21,211 nt of DNA from a virus. Under the pieces are notes generated by a model that saw nothing but the letters and a program-made list of their open reading frames with translations, searched no databases and had not been told where the DNA came from. A program made the position numbers and the translations under genes. Below are positions 1,112-18,598 of this stretch, in pieces; position 1 is the first letter of the stretch, and each line of letters starts with the position of its first letter. The stretch is taken from the IMG/VR virus record IMGVR_UViG_3300020183_000544, positions 1-21,211 of that record; one strand, 5' to 3'.

Positions 1112-1168
1112 GTGTAAGAAGGTATCAGGTTTTCGGCGGAAGTCAAGAACTTCTGCGTAGATTTTTCA
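1087..1168. repeat. 82-bp dispersed repeat, copy A (promoter plus start codon module)
   Basis: Identical at every base to 2043..2124, 956 bp away. On the minus strand it runs from upstream sequence through -35, -10, ATG and the codons for MNNTMNNN, after which the two coding sequences are unrelated. The outer end overlaps the stop codon (1166-1168) of the 51-aa gene. A third, shorter version covering only the codons starts at 1321. Confidence 0.9.
1119..1146 (-). promoter_or_regulatory. sigma-70-type promoter, predicted leaderless start
   Basis: TTGACT (1141-1146), 16-nt spacer, TACCTT (1119-1124) preceded by TGA, then only 7 nt to the ATG at 1111. A transcription start 6-8 nt after the -10 would fall on the AUG. 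It lies inside the 82-bp repeat. Confidence 0.6.
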
Positions 1169-2067: not shown

Positions 2068-2124
2068 GTGTAAGAAGGTATCAGGTTTTCGGCGGAAGTC
2101 AAGAACTTCTGCGTAGATTTTTCA
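2043..2124. repeat. 82-bp dispersed repeat, copy B (promoter plus start codon module)
   Basis: Same 82 bases as 1087..1168, covering the promoter, start codon and the shared Asn/Thr codons of the 92-aa gene. The flanks are unrelated on both sides, so the duplicated unit has sharp edges. Confidence 0.9.
2075..2102 (-). promoter_or_regulatory. sigma-70-type promoter, predicted leaderless start
   Basis: TTGACT (2097-2102), 16-nt spacer, TACCTT (2075-2080), then 7 nt to the ATG at 2067; identical to the promoter at 1119..1146. About 50 nt further upstream is a minus-strand TGGCATGAAAAATGCT (2152-2167), with GG and GC spaced as in sigma-54 sites, echoing the TTGGCATGAAA motif of the 115-bp repeats. 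Confidence 0.55.
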
Positions 2125-2776: not shown

Positions 2777-2801
2777 GTGTAATAATATAATATTATATCT
2801 A
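2777..2801 (+). promoter_or_regulatory. GTGTAA motif, probable promoter of the 2802-8446 operon
   Basis: GTGTAATAATATAATATTAT begins at 2777, 25 nt before the PhoH-like start. It shares GTGTAA plus an A/T run with the sites at 8450, 11485, 17099 and 18584 but lies farther from its ATG. No -35 box is evident. It lies within the 36-bp divergent gap between the endonuclease VII and PhoH-like genes. Confidence 0.5.
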
Positions 2802-3521
2802 ATGAAAGATAAAAAGAAAGATAAATCACCCAAAGTCCCACAACGTGATAAAATCAAAGACTCTCTCAGTATAAAAGAATTAAATTGGACGGCGCGGCAA
2901 AAAGAGTTCATTACGCTCGCAACAGATAAAAATACGCGCATCATATTTGTGAACGGCCCAGCGGGAACGAGCAAATCAATCATTTCAACTTATGTATCAT
3001 TATTATTATTGAATGAAAAGAAAATTAGCGATATAATATATATAAGGTCAGCTGTTGAAAGTAGCGACAGCAAAATAGGTTATTTACCGGGTGATGTAGA
3101 GGACAAATTGCATTTTTATAATTTGCCCTTCTTGGAGAAACTGGATGAACTCCTGCCAAATGCAGAAGTGGACAAGCTGCAAAAAGATGAGCGAGTCGTA
3201 ACTCATCCTATCAATTATGCGCGAGGAATGAGTTGGGCGGCTAAATCAATCATTTTTGATGAAGCGCAAAATAGCACGGCAAAAGAAATTATCACAATCC
3301 TAACACGTCTTGGCGAATTTAGTCGTTGTTTCATCTTGGCTGATCCTATGCAAACTGATTTGTCGTCGAATAAGAGCGGAGGTTTTGGAAAATTATATGA
3401 TTTATTCTCTGACGAGGAAAGCAAGGAAAACGGTATATATACTTTCTCTTTCACAGAGGAAGATATCGTACGTTCGAAGATAGTCAAATTTATTGTTAAT
3501 AAACTTAAAAAATTAAAATAA
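2802..3521 (+). CDS. PhoH-like P-loop ATPase
   Basis: Cytoplasmic ATPase of the PhoH family, related to superfamily 1 helicases and common in phages; its role in infection is unsettled (RNA metabolism and phosphate stress have been proposed). The 239-residue protein has a Walker A loop GPAGTSKS (52-59), the PhoH-type GYLPG (93-97), Walker B IIFDEAQ (150-156), a DPMQTD motif (181-186) and the closing FTEEDIVRSKIVKFIV. This is essentially the ATPase domain alone, with a Lys-rich N-terminal extension and no KH or PIN domain. It is first in a six-gene overlapping operon leading to the large terminase. The start is preceded by A/T-rich sequence without a Shine-Dalgarno. Confidence 0.9.
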   Translation: MKDKKKDKSPKVPQRDKIKDSLSIKELNWTARQKEFITLATDKNTRIIFVNGPAGTSKSIISTYVSLLLLNEKKISDIIYIRSAVESSDSKIGYLPGDVEDKLHFYNLPFLEKLDELLPNAEVDKLQKDERVVTHPINYARGMSWAAKSIIFDEAQNSTAKEIITILTRLGEFSRCFILADPMQTDLSSNKSGGFGKLYDLFSDEESKENGIYTFSFTEEDIVRSKIVKFIVNKLKKLK

Positions 3522-3528
3522 TAAAATT

Positions 3529-3927
3529 ATGAAAATATACTGCCAAAAATGTGGCACACCTCATAGTGCGATAGAAAAGCCGAATTTCTGCACGAAATGT
3601 GGTAATCCTTTCAATTCGAGGATGGCGGCGGCGTCAGCGCCAACACGTCCAGCTTCGCCTCGATTCGTTCGTCCTCAAAAAATTCAAAACGATTCTGTTT
3701 ATACAGAAGTTGACGAAGATAATTATGAAACAGAAATAAATACTGAACTGGCTTTCAGTACATCAAAGCTAGATGTTGAAATTGAAAAAGATGATATTAA
3801 ACCTTTAAAAATTGAAAATGTCATGGGTACAGTGAATCCCAATGATATTAAAATCGAAAAGTTCGAAGGATCTGCAAATTATTCTGCTGAAGATTTCAAG
3901 AGAGAGGCGGGTTCATTAAGAACTTAA
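3529..3927 (+). CDS. zinc-ribbon protein, 132 aa
   Basis: The N-terminal 28 residues form a zinc ribbon (C5-x2-C8, C21-x2-C24, in the pattern YCQKCGTP and FCTKCGNPF). A flexible Ala/Pro-rich linker and an acidic low-complexity tail follow, with repeated IEK/DIK segments (about 85-120). The tail probably stays disordered and mediates protein contacts. It starts 7 nt after the PhoH-like gene, and its stop overlaps the sigma-factor start (TAATG at 3925-3929), so it may be a partner of either. Function not known; the zinc ribbon is clear. Confidence 0.75.
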   Translation: MKIYCQKCGTPHSAIEKPNFCTKCGNPFNSRMAAASAPTRPASPRFVRPQKIQNDSVYTEVDEDNYETEINTELAFSTSKLDVEIEKDDIKPLKIENVMGTVNPNDIKIEKFEGSANYSAEDFKREAGSLRT

Positions 3928-4619
3928 TGAAACGCGAAGATAAAAATAAACCTTCTTTCGAAAGTAGTATTGATTTAATTAATGTCGAAATAAACAAGAG
4001 AAGGGGAAAGTGGAATCTGTCCAGTCTAAGCTGGATAGATTTTGATGATGTTGCTCAGATTATTCGTATACATATTTTTAAGAAATGGCATTTATATAAT
4101 TATAAAAAGCCTCTTGCGCCTTGGGTGAACAGAATCATATCAAATCAAATGAAGAATTTGATACGAAACAACTATTTGAATTTTATAAAACCCTGCGCCC
4201 AATGTCCTGAAGCTGAAAATGAAGATGGTTGCAAGAAATTTGGCAAACAATGCTCCGCTTGTCCATTGTACAAAGATTGGGAAAAGAATAAAAAACATGC
4301 TTACAATTTAAATATGCCTGTGTCTTTTGATAGCTTGGAAAATTCACCAGCAATAAGTTATACAGATAATATTGATGTTGATAAATTTAAATCTGACTTA
4401 GATATAAAGATGCGCAGAATGTTAAGACCCTTAGAGTGGAAACTATACGAAATGTTGTATATAAAGAAGATGTCTGAGAAACAAGCTGCGCGAAAAATGG
4501 GTTATCGCAGTTCAGAAAAGAATAGAAATCCCGGCTATAAACAAATAAAAAACATGCAGAAATCAATTATAGCCAAAATCAAAGAGGGAATTGTAAATGG
4601 TTCAATCGAAGTTTATTAA
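3927..4619 (+). CDS. phage sigma-70-family factor with cysteine cluster
   Basis: Probable RNA polymerase sigma factor for phage promoters. Residues about 37-82 resemble sigma region 2 (IDFDDVAQIIRIHIFKKW, then PLAPWVNRIISNQMKNLIRN). Residues about 160-220 resemble region 4 (MLRPLEWKLYEMLYIKKMSEKQ, then AARKMGY and a helix). Between them is an unusual insertion with five cysteines (C90, C93, C102, C109, C112, in CAQC, GC and CSAC) that may bind zinc or an iron-sulphur cluster. The protein has 230 residues. It lies in the packaging operon and overlaps the zinc-ribbon gene by one base. It is a natural candidate to recognise the GTGTAA motif before this and the structural operons, as T4 gp55 does for late promoters; that link is inference. 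Confidence 0.75.
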   Translation: MKREDKNKPSFESSIDLINVEINKRRGKWNLSSLSWIDFDDVAQIIRIHIFKKWHLYNYKKPLAPWVNRIISNQMKNLIRNNYLNFIKPCAQCPEAENEDGCKKFGKQCSACPLYKDWEKNKKHAYNLNMPVSFDSLENSPAISYTDNIDVDKFKSDLDIKMRRMLRPLEWKLYEMLYIKKMSEKQAARKMGYRSSEKNRNPGYKQIKNMQKSIIAKIKEGIVNGSIEVY

Positions 4620-4621
4620 TT

Positions 4622-5698
4622 ATGCTTACTGAAGAACAACAAAATTTAATCGTAAATGAATGGAACAATCGTCCTGACGATCCACCTTCTCTTCTCGAAT
4701 TAATTAAATTAGTTTATCCTGATCAACCAGAATTAGACGGTCGTTGTAAAGAGGGTAAATATATTCAAGCGTTTCTCGCAAAAAGAAGTTTGAAAGCAAG
4801 AGGCGCGCATGAATACAAAACAAAAAAAGCGCCCGATTTATCAGAAGAGAACAAGCAGTTTATTCTCAATAACGCCAAAACAATGAAAGCATTAGAAATT
4901 GCGCGTGTTATTTTCGATAATCCAACTCTTTCGAATTTAAATAACGAAACAAGAATTGTCGCTAAATTTATATCTGATAATATTCTTCCTCAAGACGTTT
5001 ATAAAGAAGAAGATATTCCTGAAGAAGATTATGTGTCGCCTCGTACATTGGACAAGGCGATGAATAAAGTAAATAAATATATTTACGATATTAATCTAAA
5101 AAGAGAAACTTTGAATTCACGGCAGAAAAAAGATTTAGAATGTCTATTGAAGTATATCAATACATATCGCTTTTTGCATCAGATCAATTCTTATGAATCA
5201 AATATTGATAGAGATTTATTTGAAAGTAGTTTTATCAGATATACTTATGATAAAAATGATTTAACAGAAGAAGAAGTTGATCAATATATTATTCTTTCAT
5301 CTGAAGTTGTTATCGCGTCGAATATTCAAAGAAGAGTAGAAAAGCTACAGAGAATTCTTGAAGATGCAACGGATAATGACGTTAGAGTTTCAATGGCTCT
5401 TGTTGAATCAATAAATACTGCTCAAAGTGAATACAATCAATGCGTCGGAAGACAACAAAAATTAGTTAATGATTTAAAAACTAAACGTTCTGATAGATTG
5501 GGTAATCAAATCAAGCAAAATGCCAGTATAATAAATTTGATACAAGCTTGGAAAGAAGAAGAAAGTAGACAAAAAATGATTAAGCTAGCAGAACTCCGAA
5601 AGAAAACGCTCGAAGACGAAACCGTCAAGATGGAAGAAATGGATCAGTTGAAGTGTCGTATTTTGGGTATTTCGAGAGAGGAAATATTGAATGGTTAA
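4622..5698 (+). CDS. probable terminase small subunit-like DNA-binding protein
   Basis: A 358-residue, almost wholly helical protein. The N-terminal region has two helix-turn-helix-like segments (about 1-60 with LTEEQQNLIVNEW and SLLELIKLVYPD; about 73-120 with DLSEENKQFILNNA and TMKALEIARVIFD). The middle is charged and helical, and the C-terminal half is a long coiled coil (about 225-345). DNA-binding modules plus a coiled-coil oligomerisation region, placed just upstream of the nuclease and large terminase, fit a small terminase that recognises packaging sites. It is longer than most small terminases, and I see no diagnostic motif. It starts 2 nt after the sigma gene and overlaps the next gene by 8 nt (ATGGTTAA). 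Confidence 0.5.
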   Translation: MLTEEQQNLIVNEWNNRPDDPPSLLELIKLVYPDQPELDGRCKEGKYIQAFLAKRSLKARGAHEYKTKKAPDLSEENKQFILNNAKTMKALEIARVIFDNPTLSNLNNETRIVAKFISDNILPQDVYKEEDIPEEDYVSPRTLDKAMNKVNKYIYDINLKRETLNSRQKKDLECLLKYINTYRFLHQINSYESNIDRDLFESSFIRYTYDKNDLTEEEVDQYIILSSEVVIASNIQRRVEKLQRILEDATDNDVRVSMALVESINTAQSEYNQCVGRQQKLVNDLKTKRSDRLGNQIKQNASIINLIQAWKEEESRQKMIKLAELRKKTLEDETVKMEEMDQLKCRILGISREEILNG

Positions 5699-6623
5699 CA
5701 ACTGCAAAATTTGCAGCCGACCTTTTGAAGGAGAAAAACAATTACACGCTCACCTAAAGTCTCACAGAATAACTTTAGGAAATTATTATCAACAATATTA
5801 TCCTCGTCAGGATTTATTGACGGGTGAATTTATTGAATTTAAAAATAAAGAGCAGTATTTCGAAAGTGATTTCAATAATAAAATCAATTTCAAGAAATGG
5901 GCGAAAAATTCTGATCCTAAAATCGTTGGCGAATACTGTAAAAAATTATTGATCAAACGAAAAGAAAAGAAGAAAAGTATTTATCCTTTTTCTCAAGTAG
6001 AATTAAAATCGGCGGGTTTGCCTAGTATCAATTTCTTAGAATCTGTTATTGGAGATTATTATAAGTTCTGTGGAGAGAATGGTTTCGAGCAGAAATTTTT
6101 TAATATAAATAATTTGCATACAGAAAATAATCTTTCGAATAACTTTTCTATCTGCATCGACACAAGAGAACAACTTCCATTGGATTTCACTACCCCAATC
6201 GAGGTAAAGAAATTAAATTTCGGCGATTACTGCTACGAGAATCAAGAAATCTCTGGCAAATGTTATGTCGAAAGAAAGTCGCTTAAAGATTTTATCGGAA
6301 CTTTGGCCGCAGGATATGATCGTTTTTGTCGTGAAATCGAACGCGCCGCAGAAGATGATAGTTCTATTATTGTTTTAGTAGAAAGCGATTTACAAACTTC
6401 TTTGCGTTTTAATTATCTACCTTATATCAATCGAAATACAAAAGTCAATCCTGATTTTATTTTTCATAAAGTCCGAGCATTGATGAACATGTATAAAAAT
6501 GTTCAGTTTTTATTTGTTGAAGGAAGAAAAGAATGTACAAGAGTTATAGAAAAAATATTTGCTAATAAAGATATAGCTAAAAACTATGATCTTCAACTAT
6601 TATATGATAGTTCTAAATTATGA
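5691..6623 (+). CDS. C2H2 zinc finger plus ERCC4 (XPF/Mus81-type) nuclease
   Basis: A 310-residue protein with two recognisable parts. Residues 5-25 form a classical zinc finger (C5-x2-C8-x12-H21-x3-H25). Residues about 153-290 form an ERCC4 nuclease domain: IDTREQLPLDF (156-166), NFGDYC (176-181), VERKSLKDF (193-201), then GYDRFCREIERA and IIVLVES. This is the GD-(x)n-ERK-x3-D active-site signature of structure-specific nucleases of the XPF/Mus81 fold. Such enzymes cut branched or flap DNA. Its place between the probable small and the large terminase, overlapping both, suggests a role in resolving or trimming DNA during packaging. With endonuclease VII, the window encodes two junction-type nucleases. 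Confidence 0.85.
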   Translation: MVNNCKICSRPFEGEKQLHAHLKSHRITLGNYYQQYYPRQDLLTGEFIEFKNKEQYFESDFNNKINFKKWAKNSDPKIVGEYCKKLLIKRKEKKKSIYPFSQVELKSAGLPSINFLESVIGDYYKFCGENGFEQKFFNINNLHTENNLSNNFSICIDTREQLPLDFTTPIEVKKLNFGDYCYENQEISGKCYVERKSLKDFIGTLAAGYDRFCREIERAAEDDSSIIVLVESDLQTSLRFNYLPYINRNTKVNPDFIFHKVRALMNMYKNVQFLFVEGRKECTRVIEKIFANKDIAKNYDLQLLYDSSKL

Positions 6624-8446
6624 TTTATTGTCCTGACAAATATAAAGGTAGTTTCGAAGACTTGAATAAAGAATATAAGATGCTGAAAGGAGAATTGGAT
6701 GATAAAGAAGCAAGAATTACTTTAGCAAAATTTTTAAGAAATAATGTTGGCTTTACGGCTGAATTAGTTTCTGGAATTAAATTAGCGCCTTATCAAGAAA
6801 TGACTTTGAAAGGCATAATGAATCGTAATTTTAGCATGTGCGTTTGGGGTCGTGGTTGTGGTAAAAGTTTTATCGGAAGTGTATTCTGTTTTTTGCAATG
6901 CATCTTTGAGCCGAATACTAAAATTCTTATTGCTGGTCCGACTTTTAGAACGGCACGTTTTATTTTTAATTATTTAGAAAAGATTGTTGACTCAAAAGGC
7001 GGCGAGCTGTTGCAACAAGCTTTTGGCGCGAAGGCCAAGCGTAATGATCAATATGAATGGCAGATAAACGGTGGATCCATTACTGCCATCCCTCTAAATG
7101 GAGAGAAGATCCGTGGTTTTCGCGCCAATATTTTAGTTCTGGACGAGTTCCTTCTTCTATCTGAAGATATTATCAAAAATGTATTAATGCCATTCCTTGT
7201 TGCTCCTCAAAACATGAAAGAAAGAATGGAAATCAGAGAGTTAGAAGATAAATTGATTAAAGAAGGAGTCATGACTGAAGCAGAAAGAATGGTATTTCCT
7301 AATACTTCTAAAATGATTGCTCTTTCTTCAGCTTCTTTTACATTTGAAAATTTGTATAAAACTTATAAAGAATGGAATGATAAAATCTATTCAAATGATG
7401 TTGGCGATGCTAAATATTTTATTTCTCAAATGAGTTATGAATCATTGCCCGCTCATATGATTGATAATACAGTTATTGAAGAAGCGCAAAATGGCGGCAC
7501 ATCTCATAGTTCGTTTTTAAGAGAATATTGCGCGCAATTTACAGATGGCAGTGATGGTTATTTCAGCGCAAAAAAGATGCACGAATGCACGATTCCTGAT
7601 GGAGAAGAGCCAACAACTCTTATCAAAGGAAAAAGTAATACTAAATATATTTTAGCTATTGACCCTAGCTTTTCTAATAGTCCAAGTTCTGACTTTTTTG
7701 CAATGTCTGTTTTTGAGTTGGACGAAGAGTCTAAACAAGGAACTCTTGTTCACGGTTATGCTGTCGCTGGCGGCAATCTCAAATCACATATAAATTATTT
7801 ATACTATTTAATAACAAGTTTTAATATTGTCATGATATGCATCGATAATGCTGGATATCAATTTATTGATAGCGCGAAAGAAAGTGATTTATTTAAAAAA
7901 GCTGGTATTAATATTTCATTCTTTGAAGCTGATACAACTTTAGAAGGAAATGATTATATACAAATGACGAGAAAAGCGGCGCGAGATTACAATAAAGAAA
8001 AAGGCGCTATTTGTTTCAAACAAAATTTTACAACTGATTTTATTAGAAAAGCGAATAATTATTTACAAGCCTGTATCGATCATAAAAAGGTTTGGTTTGC
8101 TTCTCGTACATCTGCGAATAATCAAGCTTTCGACAGAGAAAGTTCTTATGGCGTTAATTTAGATATGGTTAGTCATGAATCTATTTTAGATTTCATAGAA
8201 TTCCAAGATAATATTATATATCAGACGAAAAAGCAATGCGCTCTTATCGAAGTTAGATCTTCAGCTAAAGGCGTTCAAACTTTTGATCTACCTCAACATC
8301 TGAAGCGGGACAACAGTCCTAACCGAGCACGAAGAGATAATTATACAACTTTTATGTTAGGAAACTGGGCTACAAAGTTCTATTTCGAACTTCAAACAGC
8401 TAATAATATAAAAGAAGTATATACTTTTTCGCCAAGAATGATATAA
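6620..8446 (+). CDS. terL: terminase large subunit (packaging ATPase-nuclease)
   Basis: The motor that pumps DNA into the prohead and cuts the concatemer. The 608 residues show a terminase-style Walker A WGRGCGKS (76-83), Walker B ILVLDEF (171-177) with catalytic Glu 176, a coupling motif ALSSAS (234-239), and a RNase H-like nuclease domain with acidic residues in LAIDPSF (D348) and ICIDNAG (D409). A third acidic residue is probably in the NLDMVSHESILDF region. The length is normal for a large terminase. It is the last gene of the 2802-8446 operon, overlapping the ERCC4 nuclease by 4 nt (ATGA). It is followed after 3 nt by a GTGTAA motif, so the next operon has its own promoter. Confidence 0.93.
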   Translation: MIYCPDKYKGSFEDLNKEYKMLKGELDDKEARITLAKFLRNNVGFTAELVSGIKLAPYQEMTLKGIMNRNFSMCVWGRGCGKSFIGSVFCFLQCIFEPNTKILIAGPTFRTARFIFNYLEKIVDSKGGELLQQAFGAKAKRNDQYEWQINGGSITAIPLNGEKIRGFRANILVLDEFLLLSEDIIKNVLMPFLVAPQNMKERMEIRELEDKLIKEGVMTEAERMVFPNTSKMIALSSASFTFENLYKTYKEWNDKIYSNDVGDAKYFISQMSYESLPAHMIDNTVIEEAQNGGTSHSSFLREYCAQFTDGSDGYFSAKKMHECTIPDGEEPTTLIKGKSNTKYILAIDPSFSNSPSSDFFAMSVFELDEESKQGTLVHGYAVAGGNLKSHINYLYYLITSFNIVMICIDNAGYQFIDSAKESDLFKKAGINISFFEADTTLEGNDYIQMTRKAARDYNKEKGAICFKQNFTTDFIRKANNYLQACIDHKKVWFASRTSANNQAFDRESSYGVNLDMVSHESILDFIEFQDNIIYQTKKQCALIEVRSSAKGVQTFDLPQHLKRDNSPNRARRDNYTTFMLGNWATKFYFELQTANNIKEVYTFSPRMI

Positions 8447-8449
8447 AAA

Positions 8450-8464
8450 GTGTAAATAATAAAA
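8450..8464 (+). promoter_or_regulatory. GTGTAA motif before 8465
   Basis: GTGTAAATAATAAAA directly abuts the ATG; the G of GTGTAA is 15 nt from the start. If TGTAAA acts as a -10 element, transcription would begin near the ATG. No -35 box is visible, as in T4-type late promoters. Confidence 0.5.
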
Positions 8465-9631
8465 ATGCCGCAAAGTTTATTAGGTTTAAAGCAGATTAAG
8501 TCAGGAGAAATTGGAGATTATATAACAGGAGCTTTAGGAGTTTCTTCTACAGGCTCAACTGTATATACTTCCAAACCTTATATATTTAGTGATACCTTAG
8601 CAGTGAGTGGTGATGTAGAATTTAAAAATGATTTTGTTACTCAAGAAAATGCAAAAGTTAAGTCTGGGTTATTAGTATCTGGAAATTTTACAGGAATTGG
8701 GACTTCTACTTTTAATGGTCTAGTAAGATTTAATAGTTCTAGTTCTTTTAGCGGAAATTCATTTTTTGAAAGTGGAGTTACGATTTCTGGATTATTAAAG
8801 GTCACGGGAGTTAGTCAATTTGATTCTGGGGTAACATTTAATAATACGGTTACTTTTAACGATCCTATAAGTTTCAGTGACGGCCTCTATGTTACGGCAG
8901 GTTCTTCTAATTTTAGTGGAAATTCTAATTTAGTTGGAAACGTAATTAATATCGGAACGGGCGGAGCTAGTCCTTCTACTTCTTACTATTTAGGAAGTAA
9001 CAGATTTTCTGGAGATTCTTTTTTTACTGGAAACGCTACTTTTAGAGGTTCTAATATTTTTTCAGGAGCAGCCACCTTTAATAGCGGAGTAACTTTTAAT
9101 AGTGGAAATATTATTTTTAGCGGAACGGGTCAGGCTTTTGCGACAAAAACTAATTTCTCAGGAGATGTTCGTTTTTTCGCTAACGTAACAGGTTCGAATG
9201 TACAAGTTACTTCTTCGTTAGGAATCGGTACTAGTGCTACGTTTACTAATAATTCTCCATCATACTTTTTTGATGATATTTATGTTTCTGGAGCTGGAGC
9301 AAGTTTGACTTTAAGAGGAAATTCTCCATTTAATTTATTAGATAGTGATGTTGTTCATTTGAGCGGTATTTATGATTTTAGTGAATCTACTTTTAATTTA
9401 AACAGCGGATCAATATTTGAATTTAAAGCAAATTCTACTTCTAATCTAAATACAAATGCCACCTTCAGTATAAAAAGCGGTTCAAAAACAAATATTCAAA
9501 GTGGATTCGCTACTCAAAATTTCGGATCGGTTCCAGCGACGGGAACAGTTCCGGGAGGTCAACTATATCTACAGAAAATTGAAATAAGTGGTGTAACATA
9601 TTATGTCTTAGCGATGAGACAGTGGGCATAA
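8465..9631 (+). CDS. beta-repeat fibrous structural protein, paralogue 1
   Basis: A 388-residue Ser/Gly/Asn/Phe-rich protein. The first 25 residues (MPQSLLGLKQIKSGEIG then DYITGALG) are shared with 17113..18582. Residues about 45-260 carry short degenerate repeats of the type F-x-SGVTF-x-SG (for example FFESGVTISG, FDSGVTFNN, FNSGVTFNSG), expected to form a stacked beta-helix or fibrous trimer. A globular tail ends YYVLAMRQWA. It is likely a virion fibre, whisker or head-associated spike; the shared N-terminus would be the attachment segment. The position between large terminase and portal is unusual for a fibre. It is co-transcribed with the portal gene, which starts 1 nt after its stop. Confidence 0.65.
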   Translation: MPQSLLGLKQIKSGEIGDYITGALGVSSTGSTVYTSKPYIFSDTLAVSGDVEFKNDFVTQENAKVKSGLLVSGNFTGIGTSTFNGLVRFNSSSSFSGNSFFESGVTISGLLKVTGVSQFDSGVTFNNTVTFNDPISFSDGLYVTAGSSNFSGNSNLVGNVINIGTGGASPSTSYYLGSNRFSGDSFFTGNATFRGSNIFSGAATFNSGVTFNSGNIIFSGTGQAFATKTNFSGDVRFFANVTGSNVQVTSSLGIGTSATFTNNSPSYFFDDIYVSGAGASLTLRGNSPFNLLDSDVVHLSGIYDFSESTFNLNSGSIFEFKANSTSNLNTNATFSIKSGSKTNIQSGFATQNFGSVPATGTVPGGQLYLQKIEISGVTYYVLAMRQWA

Positions 9632-9632
9632 A

Positions 9633-11471: not shown

Positions 11472-11484
11472 TTTTTTAAATAAC

Positions 11485-11499
11485 GTGTAATAATATTAA
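11485..11499 (+). promoter_or_regulatory. GTGTAA motif before 11500
   Basis: GTGTAATAATATTAA abuts the ATG; the G is 15 nt from the start. It lies in a 28-bp gap after the portal gene and appears to head the 11500-14832 unit. Confidence 0.5.
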
Positions 11500-12168
11500 A
11501 TGAACTTTGACTCTAATAAAAATTTACTAGAAATAGAATACCAAAAACAGGAAATTCAAAAACCTGTTGAAGATTTAGCTATTTCTGGAGAGTCACTTAT
11601 TGTACCGAAGCTAGAAAAATTAGACGTAGAGATCGAGGCAAAGAGACCCGGACCCAAAAGTTCAGCACAAACTCCCGCTAAACCTTCGGAAAAAAGAAAA
11701 GGTTCTTCTAAAAATAAAGCTGGATCTGCTGGTCAAGATGGCGCAGCCATTACTTTTTCTAATAAAGTTGTTGAAGCTCTTAAAAATAAAGTAAAAGAAC
11801 ATAATGGTAAATATTCTAAAAAAGTTACTTTAGGACAATTGAAGAAAGTTTATCGTCGTGGTGCTGGCGCTTTTAGTTCTTCGCATCGTCCCGGAAAAAC
11901 AAGAGGACAATGGGCAATGGCGCGTGTAAATATGTTTTTAAGAATGATGTCAGGAAAATCTGTAAAAGATGCTTATAGAAAAGCTGATTCAGATGTCGCC
12001 CGCGCAACTGCATTAATTGATATCTCTGATTCTTGGGAAATAGAAGATATTGATTTCAATCAAGCGGATATAGATATTAACCAATTTGATCTAAATTATA
12101 ATTTCTCAGATATAGAAGATCTTTATTTAGATGATGAAGAAACAAATCATTTCTGGTATGAATTATAA
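11500..12168 (+). CDS. conserved head-module protein (DUF5824-like)
   Basis: 222 residues. An N-terminal acidic segment is followed by a Lys/Pro/Ser-rich linker (about 47-75). The conserved core begins KYSKKVTLGQLKKVYRRGAG and continues AFSSSHRPGKTRGQWAMARV then NMFLRMM (about 104-150), with a very acidic tail (EDIDFNQADIDINQFDLN). The core resembles the domain I know as DUF5824, frequent in phage head-maturation regions and sometimes fused to proteases or portals. Function is unknown; a structural or assembly role is inferred from its place between portal and protease. The family name is from memory and was not searched. Confidence 0.6.
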   Translation: MNFDSNKNLLEIEYQKQEIQKPVEDLAISGESLIVPKLEKLDVEIEAKRPGPKSSAQTPAKPSEKRKGSSKNKAGSAGQDGAAITFSNKVVEALKNKVKEHNGKYSKKVTLGQLKKVYRRGAGAFSSSHRPGKTRGQWAMARVNMFLRMMSGKSVKDAYRKADSDVARATALIDISDSWEIEDIDFNQADIDINQFDLNYNFSDIEDLYLDDEETNHFWYEL

Positions 12169-13018
12169 CACTAAATTAGAATTAGATTTTTCTGACAAAA
12201 TTTCCTTAGCCGCAAAGGAAAAGAAAACTCTTAATAAACCATTTAGAACTCCTAATGGTCCTAAGAAATTTTCTGCTTACGTAAAGAATGATAAAGGAAA
12301 TATTGTTAAAGTAAATTTCGGCGATCCTAATATGGAAATCAAGCGCGACGATCCAAATCGTCGTAAGAATTTCCGCGCTCGTCATCAGTGTGATACAAAT
12401 CCCGGACCAAAATGGAAAGCTCGTTACTGGTCTTGTCGTATGTGGGAATCAAAGAAATCTGTTACAGATTATACGAAAGGTTCAGTAGATTCTTTCGAAA
12501 CAGATTGGGATGGAGAAACTTTATGGGATCAAGAAGAACTATTAAAATTTTGGCCTGATTTAGCAAAAGCTCAAGAAGAAGTCGATACCGAAGAAAGTGA
12601 GATGGAAGATTATAAGAACGAGTATTTAGAAATGTCTATAGGTTCTTTAAATTCTATTAAAACTCATGCTGAAAATATTATTAACGCTTTGAGTGATGAA
12701 AAAATTAAAGAAAACCTAACCGAACCATTTTTACAAGGTAAAATTGCTATTACCGAAGATTATATGGTTATGATTCATAATTATGTTATGTTTGCTAGTG
12801 AAGAAGAAGAAATGTCTTCTGAAGCTGTCGAGAAATTGAAAAATAAAAAGTTTGATGCTGAAAAAATGCAACCTTCTACTCTAGATAAAAAAGTTCTTAA
12901 TGAGTTAGAAAAAATTAGCAAAAAAATAGCGCCGCCCGAAGAAGGCCACGGAGAAAAAGACGGAGAATCAGAAGATAAGCAAGAATATCGAAAAAGAGCC
13001 GAATTATTCAAAGGCTAA
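12158..13018 (+). CDS. conserved head-module protein with FRARHxC motif
   Basis: Residues about 30-90 hold a strongly patterned segment: KKFSAYVKNDKGNIVKVNFG, DPNMEIKRDDPNRRKNF, RARHQCD, then PGPKWKARYWSCRMW. The two Cys and one His could bind metal. This motif is familiar from uncharacterised proteins or domains in phage head operons. The C-terminal half is helical and charged, ending near REYKKRAELF-like sequence (residues EYRKRAELFKG). I prefer the Met at 12158 (11-nt overlap with the preceding gene) to the one at 12131, which would add nine residues; neither has a Shine-Dalgarno. Probably a head-assembly or completion factor; the exact role is unknown. Confidence 0.65.
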   Translation: MNYNTKLELDFSDKISLAAKEKKTLNKPFRTPNGPKKFSAYVKNDKGNIVKVNFGDPNMEIKRDDPNRRKNFRARHQCDTNPGPKWKARYWSCRMWESKKSVTDYTKGSVDSFETDWDGETLWDQEELLKFWPDLAKAQEEVDTEESEMEDYKNEYLEMSIGSLNSIKTHAENIINALSDEKIKENLTEPFLQGKIAITEDYMVMIHNYVMFASEEEEMSSEAVEKLKNKKFDAEKMQPSTLDKKVLNELEKISKKIAPPEEGHGEKDGESEDKQEYRKRAELFKG

Positions 13019-13064
13019 TTTATATGAATATTATCGCAAAAATTTTAGAGTTTCAAAATCAATT

Positions 13065-13355
13065 ATGAACGATATCACAGTAATCGATTTTAGCGAAGCT
13101 TATCAAAAAAGTTTCAAAGGAAAGAAACGCAGCGAACTCAAAGATTCTGACTTTCTTTTTCCTAAAGAGAGAAGTTTTCCTATTGTAAGTCCCCAAGATA
13201 TTCCTGACGCGATCAGCAATTTCGGACGTTACAGTGGAACAATGACTTATGACGCTTTTCTCCAAAAGCTTTATCAATTTGCAAAGAAAAAGGGCGCAGA
13301 ATTTGTCGCCGCTTTTCCTAAAAAAACCAAACAAAAATTAGGTATCAAGGATTAA
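13065..13355 (+). CDS. small DUF6582-like protein, 96 aa
   Basis: The core reads LKDSDFLFPKERSFPIVSPQ, then DIPDAISNFGRYSG and FLQKLYQFAKKKG (about 25-82). This matches the pattern D-x-x-FxxPExRxFPI-x-D-x-x-H/D-x-x-N/DA-x-x-R that I associate with DUF6582 and related short phage domains, often fused to prohead proteases or portals. Here it is a free-standing protein immediately before the protease-scaffold gene (1-nt gap). No catalytic residues are evident. The basic C-terminus (KKTKQKLG) may contact nucleic acid. The function is unknown; the family link is from memory. Confidence 0.6.
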   Translation: MNDITVIDFSEAYQKSFKGKKRSELKDSDFLFPKERSFPIVSPQDIPDAISNFGRYSGTMTYDAFLQKLYQFAKKKGAEFVAAFPKKTKQKLGIKD

Positions 13356-13356
13356 T

Positions 13357-14832
13357 ATGAATTTAAAATTCCCATTCCAAACTATTTTCAGTTCAGAAAT
13401 TAAAACTCTTCACTCTGAAGATTTTGATTTAAATTTAGCTTTGGCTAGTTTAGATAAAATTGGTCAATTTGTTCCTGACGTAGATGTCAACGAGCAAGTC
13501 GATCTTCTTCCTATTGCTTTTAACGCTTGTGTCGCTAACAGAGTGAATAGGAATGGAGACGTTTTAGATACTCAAACAGCCGTTGCTATTTATAAAAATT
13601 TTATTAACAAACCTATCAATATTGAACATAATAGAGATAAGGTAATAGGCGCAATATTAAAAGCTGGATTTAGTGAATTTGGCACTGATCTTCCTTTAAC
13701 AGAAGAAGAAGTTTCTAAATTAGACGGTCCATTTAATATTACATTAGGCGGCGTTTTATGGAAAGTAGTTAGTCCTAGAGTTTCTAGATTAGTAGAAAAT
13801 TCTTCTGATCCTTCTAGCGAAGATTATTTATCTATTTCTGCTTCTTGGGAATTAGGATTCTCAAATTATAATCTCGTTGTTCTTGATGATAACGAAAAGA
13901 ATATTTCAACAGCTGAGATTATTTCAGATCCCGAACAAATCGAAAAATATAAGGGATATTTAAGGGCTTTTGGTGGCAGCGGAATGATGGACAATGGTAA
14001 GAAAGTTTACCGTAAAATTGTCGATAAAGTTGTTCCTCTCGGAGTCGGATTAACTGAAACTCCTGCCGCTGATGTCAAAGGAATTTTAGTTTCTAAACCA
14101 GAATCTGAAAAAGAATTAGAAGATACTAAAGCTAATGAAAAAAATCTAATTTCACAAAATAATAAAAAAACTGTATTAAAAGAAAATATGAAGATTCAAA
14201 ATATATCTGATATTACTGATGAGAGTTTGAAGCAAGTAACTGCTTCAGCTGTCACTGATTTCATCGCTGAAGAAATCAAGAAGGCTTCTGAGGTATTTGA
14301 GGCTGATAAAGCTTCTGCCCAAGATCAAGCCAAGGCTACTGCCGAAAAATTCGAAGCGATTTCAAAAGATTACGAAACTCTTAAGGCTGAGTATGAGAAG
14401 ATCTCTACTACTTTAGCTGAACTTCAGAAAGAAAATGAAGTCAGAGCCAAGCAAGAGCTTTTCAATTCTAGAATGGCTGCATTTGACACAGAATTCGATC
14501 TTTCCGCTGAAGAGCGCGAAGTTATCGCTTCTGACATTGCAGAAATGAACGACGACGCCTTCGCTGCTTATAAGAATAAAGTAGCAGTATTCATGAAGAA
14601 TAAAAAGAAGGGTGAAAAGAAGGAAGAGAAAGGAATGGAGGAATCAAAGGACAAGGGCGCAGTATACGCTTCTGTCTCTGAACCCGAATTCAAGGAAGTT
14701 ATCGAATCCGCTGTTGATAACGCTTCTGTCGAGAAGAATGATCTTCCTAATTCTAGTACAGCTTCCGAAGGCTCTATCTTTGAGAAATACAAGAAAGCTT
14801 TCGATACTGAAGGTTTTATAGTTAAACTATAA
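13357..14832 (+). CDS. prohead protease fused to scaffold
   Basis: 491 residues in two parts. Residues about 1-250 look like a head-maturation serine protease: INIEHNRDKVIGAILKAGF, with candidate catalytic His 91, and EDYLSISASWELGF, with candidate Ser 159 or 161, followed by VPLGVGLTETPAA. Such enzymes cleave scaffold and capsid proteins inside the prohead. Residues about 278-440 are Ala/Glu/Lys-rich coiled coil (for example EKFEAISKDYETLKAEYEKI) typical of scaffolding proteins, with a Lys-rich block and a short tail (EKYKKAFDTEGFIVKL). This resembles protease-scaffold fusions of the lambda C/Nu3 type. Codon use shifts at the junction: AT-ending codons before it, more AAG, GAG, ATC and GCC after it, as in the capsid genes. 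Confidence 0.8.
   Translation: MNLKFPFQTIFSSEIKTLHSEDFDLNLALASLDKIGQFVPDVDVNEQVDLLPIAFNACVANRVNRNGDVLDTQTAVAIYKNFINKPINIEHNRDKVIGAILKAGFSEFGTDLPLTEEEVSKLDGPFNITLGGVLWKVVSPRVSRLVENSSDPSSEDYLSISASWELGFSNYNLVVLDDNEKNISTAEIISDPEQIEKYKGYLRAFGGSGMMDNGKKVYRKIVDKVVPLGVGLTETPAADVKGILVSKPESEKELEDTKANEKNLISQNNKKTVLKENMKIQNISDITDESLKQVTASAVTDFIAEEIKKASEVFEADKASAQDQAKATAEKFEAISKDYETLKAEYEKISTTLAELQKENEVRAKQELFNSRMAAFDTEFDLSAEEREVIASDIAEMNDDAFAAYKNKVAVFMKNKKKGEKKEEKGMEESKDKGAVYASVSEPEFKEVIESAVDNASVEKNDLPNSSTASEGSIFEKYKKAFDTEGFIVKL
14188..14832 (+). other. possible nested scaffold product from an internal start
   Basis: An in-frame ATG at 14188 (residue 278) begins MKIQNISDITDESLKQVTA, precisely where the protease part ends and the coiled coil starts. 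It is preceded by an A-rich stretch (AAAGAAAAT) like other starts here. A 214-residue free scaffold would be made in excess over the protease, as for lambda Nu3. The stronger codon bias of this half supports separate high-level expression. Confidence 0.4.
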
Positions 14833-14857
14833 TAAAAAATAAATAACAACAATAAAT

Positions 14858-14862
14858 AAGGA
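14858..14862 (+). promoter_or_regulatory. Shine-Dalgarno AAGGA of the decoration-like gene
   Basis: AAGGA ends 6 nt before the ATG at 14869. Nearly every other gene here lacks such a sequence, so this marks a gene set up for high translation. Confidence 0.6.
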
Positions 14863-14868
14863 AATAAT

Positions 14869-15441
14869 ATGGCATTACTTAGACCATTTAGACAAGTTAA
14901 CGAACATAATATTATTAATTTGTTCGGATATAGTGTCGCTGACACTTCAACCGCAACCATTGCTCTCAAAGGCAAGGTAGTCAAGATCGAATCAGGCTGG
15001 AAGGCTACTGATGACCTCGTTATCGCTTCTGATATCGGTGGTTCTTTCGGTAATGTAACTTCACCTCGTTTCAATTCTCCTGCTACAGTCACCCTTTGCG
15101 GTCAGACTGATACTCCAATTGGTATCCTTCTCATGGATGTCAAGAATCTCGACGAGAATGGTGAAGCTCTCAAGTTCAATCCTCGTAAAGCTGCTGAACT
15201 CGGCGCTGTAATTCCCGGTCAGACAGTTCCTATCGCTACCCAAGGACTCTTCCTTCTCAGCGGTATCGTTGGAACCACAAGCGCTGGTCTTAAGCTTCAC
15301 ACAGCTGGAACTGGCGAAATCGCTACTGGTACAGTTAGCGGAGCCAAGCAAATCGGTATTTGCTTAGGCGCTGCTGATACTGAAGGCAGCACCCTCGCAT
15401 TGTTAAACTTCTCTTCATTCCTTGAGACTTCTGTAGCCTAA
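14869..15441 (+). CDS. probable capsid decoration or head-stabilising protein
   Basis: 190 residues, Gly/Ala/Thr-rich and predicted to be mainly beta: MALLRPFRQVNEHNIINLF, ALKGKVVKIESGW, TVTLCGQTDTPIGILLMDV, a VPIATQGLFLLSGIV strand, and the ending TLALLNFSSFLETSVA. There is no signal peptide. Size, fold, position immediately upstream of the capsid gene, a clear Shine-Dalgarno and codon use like the capsid gene (many C-ending codons) point to an abundant virion protein, most likely decoration. It lacks a motif diagnostic of a named family, so this role is inferred. The 36-bp gap after the scaffold gene contains A/T-rich sequence but no GTGTAA. Confidence 0.65.
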   Translation: MALLRPFRQVNEHNIINLFGYSVADTSTATIALKGKVVKIESGWKATDDLVIASDIGGSFGNVTSPRFNSPATVTLCGQTDTPIGILLMDVKNLDENGEALKFNPRKAAELGAVIPGQTVPIATQGLFLLSGIVGTTSAGLKLHTAGTGEIATGTVSGAKQIGICLGAADTEGSTLALLNFSSFLETSVA

Positions 15442-15466
15442 TTTACAGAGTATTAAGAATTAACAC

Positions 15467-15472
15467 AAAGGA
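15467..15472 (+). promoter_or_regulatory. Shine-Dalgarno AAAGGA of the major capsid gene
   Basis: AAAGGA ends 9 nt before the ATG at 15482, in a 40-nt leader. With the site at 14858 it is one of the few good Shine-Dalgarno sequences in the window. Confidence 0.6.
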
Positions 15473-15481
15473 TAAATAAAC

Positions 15482-16603
15482 ATGAAAATTACACTTAAGA
15501 ATACTCCTGAACAAGTTGAATTGATCAAGGCTATGGGTTCTCGTAACGCCATCGTCGCCAGAGAAGCTCAAGAAGCTTTCGCTGCATTTCTTGGTCCTGT
15601 TATTCAAAAGGTTCTCTACAAGGCCGGTACTGCCAGCACAGTTTATGTTGATGCTGAGTACGACGAAGATGACGCTCCTTCATATCCTCTCGACCTTTAT
15701 TACAATGAAGGTTCTGGTTATGTAACCGTTTGGAGCCAGAATACAGCTGGTGGTCTTCCTACCTCTGAAGTTACTGGTGGCGGCGAAGTCAAGTTCCAAA
15801 CCTACCGTTTGGACAGCGCTGTTAGCTTCCTCAAGCGTTACGCTCGTCGTTCACGCTTGGACGTAGTTAGCAAGGCTGTTGAGCGTATGACAAACGAAGT
15901 TCTTGTTAAGCAAGAGCGCAATGCTTGGGCCGTTCTCTTGAAGGCTCTCGCCACTGCTTCCACCACTCCTAAAGGTGGCTCTGCTCTCAAGCACGTAATC
16001 ACCAGCGCCGGAACTACTTTCGGCCTCACTGACTTAAACGCTCTCATGACCCGCATGAAGAGAATCAACTCTGACTTCGATGGTGGTACAGCCGCTGCTC
16101 CCTATAGCAAGGGCGTTACTGATCTCTATGTTTCTCCTGAAGTCATGCAGACCATTAGAGGTTTCTCATTCACTCCTCTCAGCTCTGGAGCTTCTGCTCC
16201 TCAGTTACCTGAAGGAGTTCGCGAAGAGATCTATCGCGCTGCTGGCGCTGGATCAATCTTCGGTGTTAACATCACTGAACTCCTCGAACTCGGAGTTGGT
16301 AAGAAGTACAATACTCTCTTCGATTCTTTCTTAGGTTCTGGAGACAATCTCGGAAACGTTGCTGGCAATGCAGACTTTGATGGTTCTGCTGACCAGATTA
16401 TTATCGGTATCGATAACAGCAAGGGTGCCTTCATCCGTCCTGTTGCTCGTCAAGCCGAGAGCGGTGGTACATTCACTGCTCTTCCTGATGACCAGTTCAA
16501 CAACAATCGTGTTGACAAAGCTGGTTTCTACGGCTTCATCGAGGAAGGTCGCATGTGCTTAGACGCCCGCGCTATCGTTGGTATCTCTTTGGTTAACGCC
16601 TAA
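15482..16603 (+). CDS. major capsid protein (HK97-like fold)
   Basis: Main head shell protein, 373 residues. An N-terminal helical segment (about 1-45, including AREAQEAFAAFLGPVIQKVL) may be trimmed or act as an N-arm. Then come VYVDAEYDEDDAPSYPLDLY, an E-loop-like Gly-rich stretch with GEVKFQTYRLDSAVSFLKRY, a spine helix RLDVVSKAVERMTNEVLVKQ, and the A/P-domain parts LNALMTRMKRINSDF and VTDLYVSPEVMQTIRGF. It ends GRMCLDARAIVGISLVNA. Strong codon bias, a Shine-Dalgarno sequence, the position after protease-scaffold and decoration genes, and the terminator that follows all fit the most abundant virion protein. Confidence 0.88.
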   Translation: MKITLKNTPEQVELIKAMGSRNAIVAREAQEAFAAFLGPVIQKVLYKAGTASTVYVDAEYDEDDAPSYPLDLYYNEGSGYVTVWSQNTAGGLPTSEVTGGGEVKFQTYRLDSAVSFLKRYARRSRLDVVSKAVERMTNEVLVKQERNAWAVLLKALATASTTPKGGSALKHVITSAGTTFGLTDLNALMTRMKRINSDFDGGTAAAPYSKGVTDLYVSPEVMQTIRGFSFTPLSSGASAPQLPEGVREEIYRAAGAGSIFGVNITELLELGVGKKYNTLFDSFLGSGDNLGNVAGNADFDGSADQIIIGIDNSKGAFIRPVARQAESGGTFTALPDDQFNNNRVDKAGFYGFIEEGRMCLDARAIVGISLVNA

Positions 16604-16620
16604 TTAAATTAACTCAACAG

Positions 16621-16652
16621 TCGGGGGGGAGAAATCCCTCCCGATTTTTTTT
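16621..16652 (+). terminator. rho-independent terminator after the capsid gene
   Basis: A 10-bp stem (16621-16630 with 16635-16644; one G-T pair) closes a GAAA tetraloop and is followed by eight T (16645-16652). It lies 17 bp after the capsid stop codon and closes the head operon. Confidence 0.92.
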
Positions 16653-16686
16653 ATTTATATATCTAATTTTTTTATAATAAAATAGT

Positions 16687-17037
16687 ATGGCTAAGAAAAC
16701 TAAAAAATTAGAAGATCTATCTCAGACTCACGCTATGGAGGAAAAATTTGTACCAACTACTTTGGACCAAATTTGGGGGGACGAAGGATTGTCGAAATAT
16801 AACACAATGGATGAACAAGTTTATATTGATCGATTGAATGAAATGAATAAAACTGACCTTTGGAGTCATGCTTCGAAGGTCGGTTTAGTTCCAATTGATA
16901 ATACATCTCTTCTTCGTAAGACTTTGATTGCAGAATTTAAGAAACATGTTAATATGTATAGAAAATCTTTAGCGCCACAAGAAACTCCTAAAAGACTTTC
17001 AAAAGAAGCTTTGAAAATTCTTTCTGAAGGACGATAA
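16687..17037 (+). CDS. small conserved protein with SAP-like helical motif, 116 aa
   Basis: A basic, mainly helical protein. Residues about 43-92 (YIDRLNEMNKTDLWSHASKV, then GLVPIDNTSLLRKTLIAEF and KKHVNMYRK) form a helix-extension-helix with Leu and Lys spacing like SAP or Rho N-terminal motifs, which often bind nucleic acid. The flanks are charged and probably disordered. It sits alone between two terminators, directly downstream of the capsid gene, where phages often keep head-completion proteins. An A/T-rich leader precedes the start (TATAATAAAATAGT) without GTGTAA or Shine-Dalgarno. Function is unknown. Confidence 0.65.
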   Translation: MAKKTKKLEDLSQTHAMEEKFVPTTLDQIWGDEGLSKYNTMDEQVYIDRLNEMNKTDLWSHASKVGLVPIDNTSLLRKTLIAEFKKHVNMYRKSLAPQETPKRLSKEALKILSEGR

Positions 17038-17061
17038 TATAAATAGGAAAAAATTTATTCG

Positions 17062-17089
17062 AAAGGCTATCTTAGGATAGCCTTTTTTT
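17062..17089 (+). terminator. rho-independent terminator before the fibre region
   Basis: Perfect 10-bp stem (AAAGGCTATC at 17062-17071 with GATAGCCTTT at 17076-17085), TTAG loop, and a T run through 17089. It ends 9 nt before the next GTGTAA motif. Confidence 0.92.
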
Positions 17090-17098
17090 GTATATAAA

Positions 17099-17112
17099 GT
17101 GTAATTTAATTT
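17099..17112 (+). promoter_or_regulatory. GTGTAA motif before 17113
   Basis: GTGTAATTTAATTT abuts the ATG; the G is 14 nt from the start. It lies immediately after a terminator, as expected for a fresh promoter. Confidence 0.55.
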
Positions 17113-18582
17113 ATGCCGCAGAGTTTAATAGGTCTTAAACAAATTCGTTCTGGAGAATTAGGAAGTTATATAACTGGAGCTTTAGGCTTTGGAATAACTG
17201 GCTCTGATTCTGTATCTATTTATAAAGATTTATTTGTTACGGGAAAAGCGACTTTCAGCGGCGAAGTTAATTTTAAATCTGATTCTTTTTTTAATCAGGA
17301 AGCTTTTTTTAATTCTGGAATTAATGTTTCTGGTGATATAACTGGGCGTAATAATTTAATTGTTAATAATAATTTAACTGTTTCTGGAATTGGTACATTT
17401 GATAAAAATGTTTTTTTCGAAAGCGGTGTTGCTATCACAGGAGCTTTAAGAACTGAAGGTACAGTTACATTTAATGATCCCATTACTGTAAATGATACTT
17501 CTACTTTTAATAGTGGAGTAACAATCAATTCTACTTTAACTATTGGAGTGGGAACTTCAACTTTTAATAGTAATGTAAATATTTTAGGGTCTGTTAATAC
17601 GATTGGCGCAGGTGGCGGTTCTCCTTCTACAAATTATTATCCCGGAACGAATATTTTTAGCGGAACAAATAATTTTACTGGAGATATAAATTCTAGGGGC
17701 ACGAATAATTTTTATAACAATAATATTTTTAATAGCGGCGTTAATTTTAATAGTGGTACGGTTACTTTTAGTGGTTTAAAGCAAGATTTTTTAACAGAAA
17801 CAAATTTATCAGGTTATACAAAAATTTTAAGAACTGGAGAAGTCGAGAATTTATTAATCACTAATAATCTATCAGTAGATAATTCATCCACTGCTGTTTT
17901 TTCTGGAACTTCAACTTTTAATAATAGCGTAACATATTCAGGAAATTTTTCGAATTCTTATGTAAATGGAGCTTATCAAAACTTATATCCAACTTCTCAT
18001 ATAGATTTTCAAAGTGGAGCTTATTCTAATTTTGAAAATAATTCTTATTTAGGATTAAAGACAGGAGCTTCAATTATTCTAAGCGGTTCTCAATATAATA
18101 AAGGCTCATCAAGTACTTATTTTGAATCTGGATCTCGTTTATATTTTAATTTAGGATCTACTGCTACTGGTACTTTATATTTACAAAGCGGAAGTAAGAT
18201 TGGTATCGGAACTTCTCTTCCTACTTATGCAATTGATGTAAAAAATTATGATGTTAGTGTCAGTGGAACAGGATATTTTCTCGATCTTAGAATTAGTGGA
18301 TATGAACCAATTACTGAATATAGATTCAATGCAAAATCATATTCATTAGTTTCTGGAGATACTTATAAAACAATTACTTATAATGCTGTTAGCGGAACTC
18401 CAATAATAAATCCAAATATAAGATGCACAGGAACTGCGGCGCAAATTGGCGACTCTGATTTATTAGCCGCAATGATTTCTGGAGTGCCAACAACAACAAG
18501 CGCGACAATATTATTTTCAGCAGAAATTCCAATCAGTAATAGATATTTACTTGATGTAATTATCGCGTCACCAACCTTTTAA
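17113..18582 (+). CDS. beta-repeat fibrous structural protein, paralogue 2
   Basis: A 489-residue paralogue of 8465..9631. It has the same N-terminal segment (MPQSLIGLKQIRSGELG then SYITGALG), the same type of repeats (FFESGVAITG, FNSGVTINS, FNSGVNFNSG, about residues 40-250), and a shared landmark, IGAGGGSPSTNYY versus IGTGGASPSTSYY. The C-terminal third differs: it adds QSGSKIGIGTSLPTYAIDVK and a globular end with LDVIIASPTF. Expected to be a trimeric beta-helical fibre or whisker whose distal end has been exchanged. It lies between the capsid region and the long fibre gene, with its own GTGTAA motif. Confidence 0.7.
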   Translation: MPQSLIGLKQIRSGELGSYITGALGFGITGSDSVSIYKDLFVTGKATFSGEVNFKSDSFFNQEAFFNSGINVSGDITGRNNLIVNNNLTVSGIGTFDKNVFFESGVAITGALRTEGTVTFNDPITVNDTSTFNSGVTINSTLTIGVGTSTFNSNVNILGSVNTIGAGGGSPSTNYYPGTNIFSGTNNFTGDINSRGTNNFYNNNIFNSGVNFNSGTVTFSGLKQDFLTETNLSGYTKILRTGEVENLLITNNLSVDNSSTAVFSGTSTFNNSVTYSGNFSNSYVNGAYQNLYPTSHIDFQSGAYSNFENNSYLGLKTGASIILSGSQYNKGSSSTYFESGSRLYFNLGSTATGTLYLQSGSKIGIGTSLPTYAIDVKNYDVSVSGTGYFLDLRISGYEPITEYRFNAKSYSLVSGDTYKTITYNAVSGTPIINPNIRCTGTAAQIGDSDLLAAMISGVPTTTSATILFSAEIPISNRYLLDVIIASPTF

Positions 18583-18583
18583 A

Positions 18584-18598
18584 GTGTAATATAATAAA
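18584..18598 (+). promoter_or_regulatory. GTGTAA motif before 18599
   Basis: GTGTAATATAATAAA abuts the ATG; the G is 15 nt from the start. It starts 1 nt after the stop codon of the preceding gene. Confidence 0.55.

Follow-up and report, generated by a model that had tools for sequence, protein, structure and literature searches.

The closest described counterparts of the element treated here are the phiEco32 middle and late promoters, which consist of a single element, tAATGTAtA, with a start 6-8 bp downstream and no -35 element, and which are read by the phage sigma factor gp36 with the host core alongside early promoters of host sigma70; the lack of region 4 in gp36 has been offered as the reason for the absent -35 element (PMC8948821, PMC4331800). 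T4 late promoters, dependent on gp55, gp33 and gp45, comprise only a -10 element, TATAAATA, followed by A/T-rich sequence and drive virion genes; the review describing them raises the question of why a fused late sigma is missing (PMC2988020). Phage 7-11 late promoters, read by gp47, are bipartite (GTAAtg-16-aCTA) (PMC8948821), and those of phiKZ and AR9 are short elements at the transcription start (TATG in phiKZ, with G as the start), phage transcripts being described as often leaderless (PMC5312081). Here we describe a GTGTAA element followed by an A/T run in a 21.2-kb piece of a tailed-phage genome stored as a virus record (IMGVR_UViG_3300020183_000544, positions 1 to 21,211; the whole of this stretch is hereafter the window) and in its relatives. 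The element very probably constitutes a phage-specific promoter with a -10 element only, from which a phage sigma on the host core would launch leaderless or short-leader mRNAs. No GTGTAA motif was found as a phage late promoter in the open-access literature searched, where one 7-11 candidate has these letters by chance.

GTGTAA upstream of genes in the relatives and in the window

Relatives were retrieved via the terminase and the sigma factor. Ranking of hexamers across 862 gene upstreams from 11 contigs, comparing near positions (-45 to -10) with far ones (-100 to -55), placed GTGTAA at the top of all 4,096, with 112 near and 4 far copies. A second set, composed of ten related phage genomes each 130 kb or longer (1,812 genes), contains GTGTAA at -45 to -10 of 188 genes, compared with 15 in a far-upstream control window of similar length. 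The preliminary description of the window had named motif discovery across the genome and its relatives as a check, and GTGTAA proves to be enriched upstream of genes in both sets. The element is directional, with 127 copies pointing toward the gene and 2 reversed in co-directional gaps, and is found at 171 of 1,042 genes with an upstream gap or a divergent neighbor versus 17 of 770 tightly packed genes (p = 3e-26).

Conservation extends to individual positions. Of 76 relatives, 70 have GTGTAA past the terminase stop and every one has GTGTA there, even though the next gene differs and its ATG lies at varying distances. The portal gene carries GTGTAA directly upstream in nine of the ten large genomes, the tenth having one inserted gene between, like the window, and PhoH is directly preceded by GTGTA[A/T] in seven of ten large relatives.

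The window contains all five plus-strand sites of the preliminary description, each with its A/T-only run and at the reported distance from the ATG (14-15 nt in four cases, 25 nt at PhoH; Table 1). The short gaps ascribed to them hold for four sites (16-75 nt); the site at 2777 instead occupies the end of a 734-nt gap. The placement of one site directly past a terminator-like hairpin (17099) and of another directly past a stop codon (18584, with the stop at 18580-18582) is borne out. GTGTAA lies within 45 nt upstream of 6 of the 17 plus-strand genes, or 5 of 17 without the copy inside gene 8465-9631, against a mean of 0.23 genes and a maximum of 3 in 2,000 trials with shuffled upstreams; at the far-upstream rate, the binomial p for the five sites is ~1e-8. 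The signal lies in position and not in the hexamer alone, as had been proposed: the window has just a slight excess of bare GTGTAA (13 copies versus 7.5 expected, a number reached in 1 of 100 shuffles), and this count alone is weak evidence. Intragenic copies exist, the second of them at 11924 and not, as first given, at 11934.

Element architecture and the host-type promoter class

The distance from GTGTAA to the ATG in the ten large genomes has a one-sided edge, with 41 sites at -14, 1 at -13 and a tail extending to about -45. A Shine-Dalgarno-like sequence accompanies 1 of 85 close sites and 37 of 80 distant ones (p = 3e-13). Close sites, with the G 14-15 nt before the ATG, would give leaderless mRNAs whose first base falls at the start codon, and distant sites, with the G 18-45 nt before it, short leaders, often with a Shine-Dalgarno sequence. 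When a T4 region was processed in the same way, TATAAATA emerged at -22 to -36 and GTGTAA did not appear; the gene caller is therefore not the source of the -14 edge.

Host-type TTGAC sequences possess an edge of their own at -34 (42 sites, with 1 at -33) in the ten large genomes, this hard edge being seen in G001, G008-G010, G013, G016, G017 and G025-G027. Under standard sigma70 spacing, TTGAC at -34 corresponds to a start on the ATG. The two edges agree if transcription begins ~14 nt past the first G of GTGTAA; from both edges and the missing Shine-Dalgarno sequence, we infer a start on the A of the ATG for close sites. Alignment to the phiEco32 tAATGTAtA register predicts a start 13-15 nt past the G, in agreement with the edge. 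The start at about the ATG suggested for the window is thus upheld in the relatives by the distance edge, which points to it from sequence alone. GTGTA is near-invariant, and T at the sixth -10 position is weak (47% versus 30% background). The upstream regions of the relatives yielded no conserved -35 element; the absence of a -35 box and the A/T run downstream, both noted in the window, hold in the relatives as well.

GTGTAA and TTGAC define two exclusive promoter classes in the ten large genomes, numbering 188 and 194, respectively, with no start served by both. Neighboring promoters belong to the same class in 287 of 372 cases versus 191 expected, the maximum in 1,000 shuffles being 218. 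TTGAC promoters head the genes for DnaB helicase, DNA ligase, IMP dehydrogenase, an ArdC-like protein, RNA ligase and many small genes, while GTGTAA promoters head the portal gene, the PhoH operon and other virion-region genes. Early genes would be transcribed from ordinary TTGAC/TATAAT host-type promoters, and their mRNAs, given the edge at -34, would be leaderless too; the leaderless placement of both classes suggests a host that translates leaderless mRNAs well. The window holds both classes, with two TTGAC promoters on the minus strand near the left end and GTGTAA on the plus strand. The search for a third class, one suited to the second sigma, gave only CTTGC variants of the early promoter. 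In G003-G006, TGTGAA associates with the early TTGAC region and was dropped as a separate promoter.

Candidate readers and competing explanations

Enrichment, direction, conservation, the distance edge, the Shine-Dalgarno split and the two exclusive classes are read directly from the sequences and support GTGTAA with its A/T run as a -10-type element for virion and other post-early phage genes. The preliminary description is supported to this extent; it did not include the sigma factor of the window, the TTGAC class with its leaderless edge or the phiEco32 tAATGTAtA precedent. Its label 'late' we infer from the genes served (portal, PhoH-terminase operon, scaffold region), and here some observations weigh against the promoter as proposed. 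The ribonucleotide reductase small subunit gene has a GTGTAA site in three genomes, so the class may comprise middle plus late genes, making 'late' perhaps too narrow a name; no GTGTAA site precedes the capsid gene itself, whose expression would need operon read-through; and a sigma4-like domain in the candidate reader is unexpected at a promoter without a -35 element.

In the proposed mechanism, a phage sigma, either sigma A or sigma B, would guide the host RNA polymerase core to GTGTAA. Sigma A, encoded in the window inside an operon headed by a GTGTAA promoter, comprises a sigma2 domain, an insert with four cysteines and a sigma4-like domain. The sigma2 domain (PF04542) scores above cut-off in the window and in seven of seven scanned records, and the cysteines, at 90, 93, 102 and 112, are invariant in an alignment of 31 relatives, probably forming a zinc insert. 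In the predicted fold, residues 153-224 match SigD sigma4 (Z 9.2, rmsd 1.7 over 62 residues), and nearly all structure matches listed for this C-terminal domain are sigma factors; the confidence of the model is moderate (pLDDT 72.8, pTM 0.38), and for small helical domains Z values in this range do not decide the matter. Foldseek gave no match for sigma A at E <= 0.001, its sigma4-like domain had no hit at the sequence level, and its profile returned nothing useful from solved-structure sequences. Neither T4 gp55 nor gp36 was seen among the structure matches listed, which does not exclude a relation.

Each of the ten genomes that reach 130 kb or more encodes both sigma A and sigma B (~200 aa), making it impossible to separate the two by presence or absence; contigs without sigma A (78-121 kb) are probably fragments. 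The genomes that share the hard TTGAC edge each have at least two sigmas (sigma B loci L305-L384). A third, RpoD-like sigma C of 273-280 aa occurs in G001 and G002/G008, and G002 has a different sigma of ~203 aa as well.

The strongest competing account leaves the promoter unchanged and assigns it to sigma B or another phage sigma in place of sigma A, a possible arrangement in which sigma B, made early from host-type promoters, would activate the GTGTAA promoters including that of the sigma A operon, leaving sigma A with another role or reinforcing the loop. Sigma B matches sigma A in occurring in every large genome. A host-type TTGAC promoter lies upstream of the sigma B operon in three of ten, and GTGTAA in none; the sigma A operon is mostly headed by GTGTAA. 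Against sigma B, the DNA-reading helix is near-constant in sigma A (81% mean identity versus 60% in sigma B), as befits an invariant element, in a comparison that is weak given the differing size and diversity of the two sets. Helix conservation thus leans to sigma A and timing to sigma B: the reader may well be sigma A, might almost equally be sigma B, and is unlikely to be both, another or neither.

An extended -10 element of the host main sigma, requiring no phage sigma, is improbable. The TG adjoining TA and the A/T-rich downstream sequence resemble one; however, the pattern TGnTAnnnT is not matched, the TG lying directly before TA and the last T being the weak position described above. 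The same near-invariant GTGTA is kept by phages across many metagenomes, and TTGAC/TATAAT host-type promoters form their separate, exclusive class in these very genomes.

A translation signal near the start codon would account for the peak 14-15 nt before the ATG and is highly improbable given the one-sided edge with its tail to ~45 nt, the Shine-Dalgarno sequences that separate distant sites from the ATG, the preference for operon heads over inner genes and the one copy per divergent gene. An operator, in which a regulator binds a TTACAC...GTGTAA inverted repeat, is just as improbable: dyads such as TTACACTATTATAGTGTAA exist, but most GTGTAA sites are single and directional, and the dyads were rejected as operators because they occur almost only between divergent genes at spacings of 1 to 24 nt, as expected of back-to-back promoters. 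Divergent gene pairs often have such paired copies, one for each gene (L200:2751-2800, L091:16635-16704, L212:2955-2999 and L403:13172-13242). In the extreme case (TTACACTGTGTAA) the copies are one nucleotide apart, so that simultaneous binding by two polymerases is hardly possible.

Window gene content and comparison with described systems

The features of the window are listed in Table 1. Several genes without recognized function lie on the plus strand between the portal gene and the cement protein gene. The two fibre-like genes share a near-identical starting peptide (MPQSL.GLKQI.SGE) and have a GTGTAA site each; the first occupies the terminase-portal interval, which is empty of genes in most relatives. 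A strong terminator-like hairpin (16619-16646) lies 3' of the capsid gene, and the gene at 16687 has neither GTGTAA nor TTGAC just upstream, leaving its promoter unexplained. The left, early-type part contains two near-identical repeat pairs (98-99% range), 412-536/1352-1476 (125 nt) and 1084-1168/2040-2124 (85 nt), the latter including the TTGACT promoter and the first codons of the minus-strand gene. A direct repeat of 174 nt (97%) lies within the tail-fibre-like gene (20168-20341/21038-21211).

Table 1. Promoter elements, genes and a terminator-like hairpin in the window
Feature	Position	Strand	Remarks
Host-type early promoter TTGACT ... GATACC	1112..1152	-	Of gene 794-1111; positioned for leaderless mRNA
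Host-type early promoter TTGACT ... GATACC, second copy	2068..2108	-	For gene 1789-2067; positioned for leaderless mRNA
GTGTAA + A/T run	2777..2790	+	G 25 nt before PhoH ATG; heads PhoH - zinc ribbon - sigma A - terminase operon
PhoH	ATG 2802	+	Head of the operon
Small zinc-ribbon-like protein	Between PhoH (2802) and sigma A (3927)	+	
Sigma A, phage sigma factor	3927..4619	+	Sigma2, four-cysteine insert, sigma4-like domain; candidate GTGTAA reader; PF04542 26.5 bits, alignment of 31 relatives, predicted fold
Protein without assigned function, then ERCC4-type nuclease	Between sigma A and terminase	+	
Large terminase	Starts 6620	+	
GTGTAA + A/T run	8450..8464	+	G 15 nt before fibre-like ATG 8465; directly past terminase stop
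Fibre-like protein	8465-9631	+	
Likely portal	Starts 9633	+	Name inferred from position and size
GTGTAA + A/T run	11485..11499	+	G 15 nt before ATG 11500; operon 11500-16603 including likely capsid gene
Cement protein	Starts 14869	+	Weakly recognized
Likely capsid protein	Starts 15482	+	Weakly recognized; within operon 11500-16603
Terminator-like hairpin	17061..17086	+	Just upstream of the 17099 site
GTGTAA + A/T run	17099..17112	+	G 14 nt before ATG 17113
Second fibre-like protein	17113-18582	+	
GTGTAA + A/T run	18584..18598	+	G 15 nt before ATG 18599, tail-fibre-like gene
Tail-fibre-like protein	ATG 18599	+	phrog_16641 tail fibre; extends past the window end

The lineage has no close relative among named phages as judged by the terminase (21-28% identity among the matches listed), and none was found for the capsid among named phages; for sigma A, 50,697 named phage records gave none at the sensitivity applied. 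The terminase was not found in GTDB genomes. Sigma A occurs on more than 580 contigs among the matches listed. Sigma relatives lie on four contigs binned as Flavobacteriales, Halobacteriovorax and Flavobacteriaceae, three of which have GTGTAA-type sites; these are probably phage contigs inside bins, so no host is claimed. The two promoter classes provide a transcription map, drawn from sequence, for a phage lineage found in many metagenomes, making early and later genes predictable even from fragments and turning into a testable question why a phage sigma that has a sigma4-like domain would use a promoter without a -35 element.

Across described systems, the likeness to T4 late promoters noted for the window is confirmed in the relatives, which share the -10 element only, no -35 conservation and A/T-rich sequence downstream; the service of virion genes and, as proposed here, a phage sigma on the host core are further likenesses, and TGTAAATA is one base away from TATAAATA. 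The consensus is not the T4 TATAAATA but GTGTAA followed by A/T, and T4 sites lie 22-36 nt before the ATG and give leadered mRNAs, compared with 14-15 nt here. The T4 sigma is split, in contrast to the sigma2 and sigma4-like domains joined on one chain in sigma A. A profile search against one gp55 sequence, a weak test, detected no relation, and no sliding clamp was seen among the families listed for 64 G009 proteins, which do not amount to a complete scan.

Phage 7-11 resembles the present system in using a phage sigma with region 4 for late genes and differs in its bipartite promoter. The short elements of phiKZ and AR9 are similarly located at the transcription start, but those phages use multisubunit polymerases of their own, of which none was seen among the families listed for 64 G009 proteins (3 of 28 families of one set falling outside that listing).

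Candidates for the fused late sigma would be sigma A or sigma B, neither being the first two-domain phage sigma. We tentatively propose that, throughout a very large group of uncultured phages, leaderless mRNAs arise from a -10-only promoter recognized by a single-chain sigma that joins sigma2, a probable zinc insert with four cysteines and sigma4. If true, this would be a fused late sigma of the kind noted as absent in the T4 review (PMC2988020), working without a -35 element, in phages using leaderless translation for early and late genes alike.

The phiEco32 system shares the single element with a TGTA core and no -35, host-type early promoters alongside a phage-specific class and, as proposed here, a phage sigma on the host core; its start distance fits the value predicted here from the edge. 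It differs in consensus (GTGTAA here, not AATGTATA), in the leaderless placement seen here and in gp36 lacking region 4, whereas the sigma A model has a sigma4-like domain; a search against a single gp36 sequence, a weak test, revealed no kinship with either sigma A or sigma B. Because the consensus differs, a gp55 or gp36 relation is undetected and the sigma4-like domain departs from gp36, we file the system as a member of neither; in motif, it is closer to phiEco32 gp36 than to T4.

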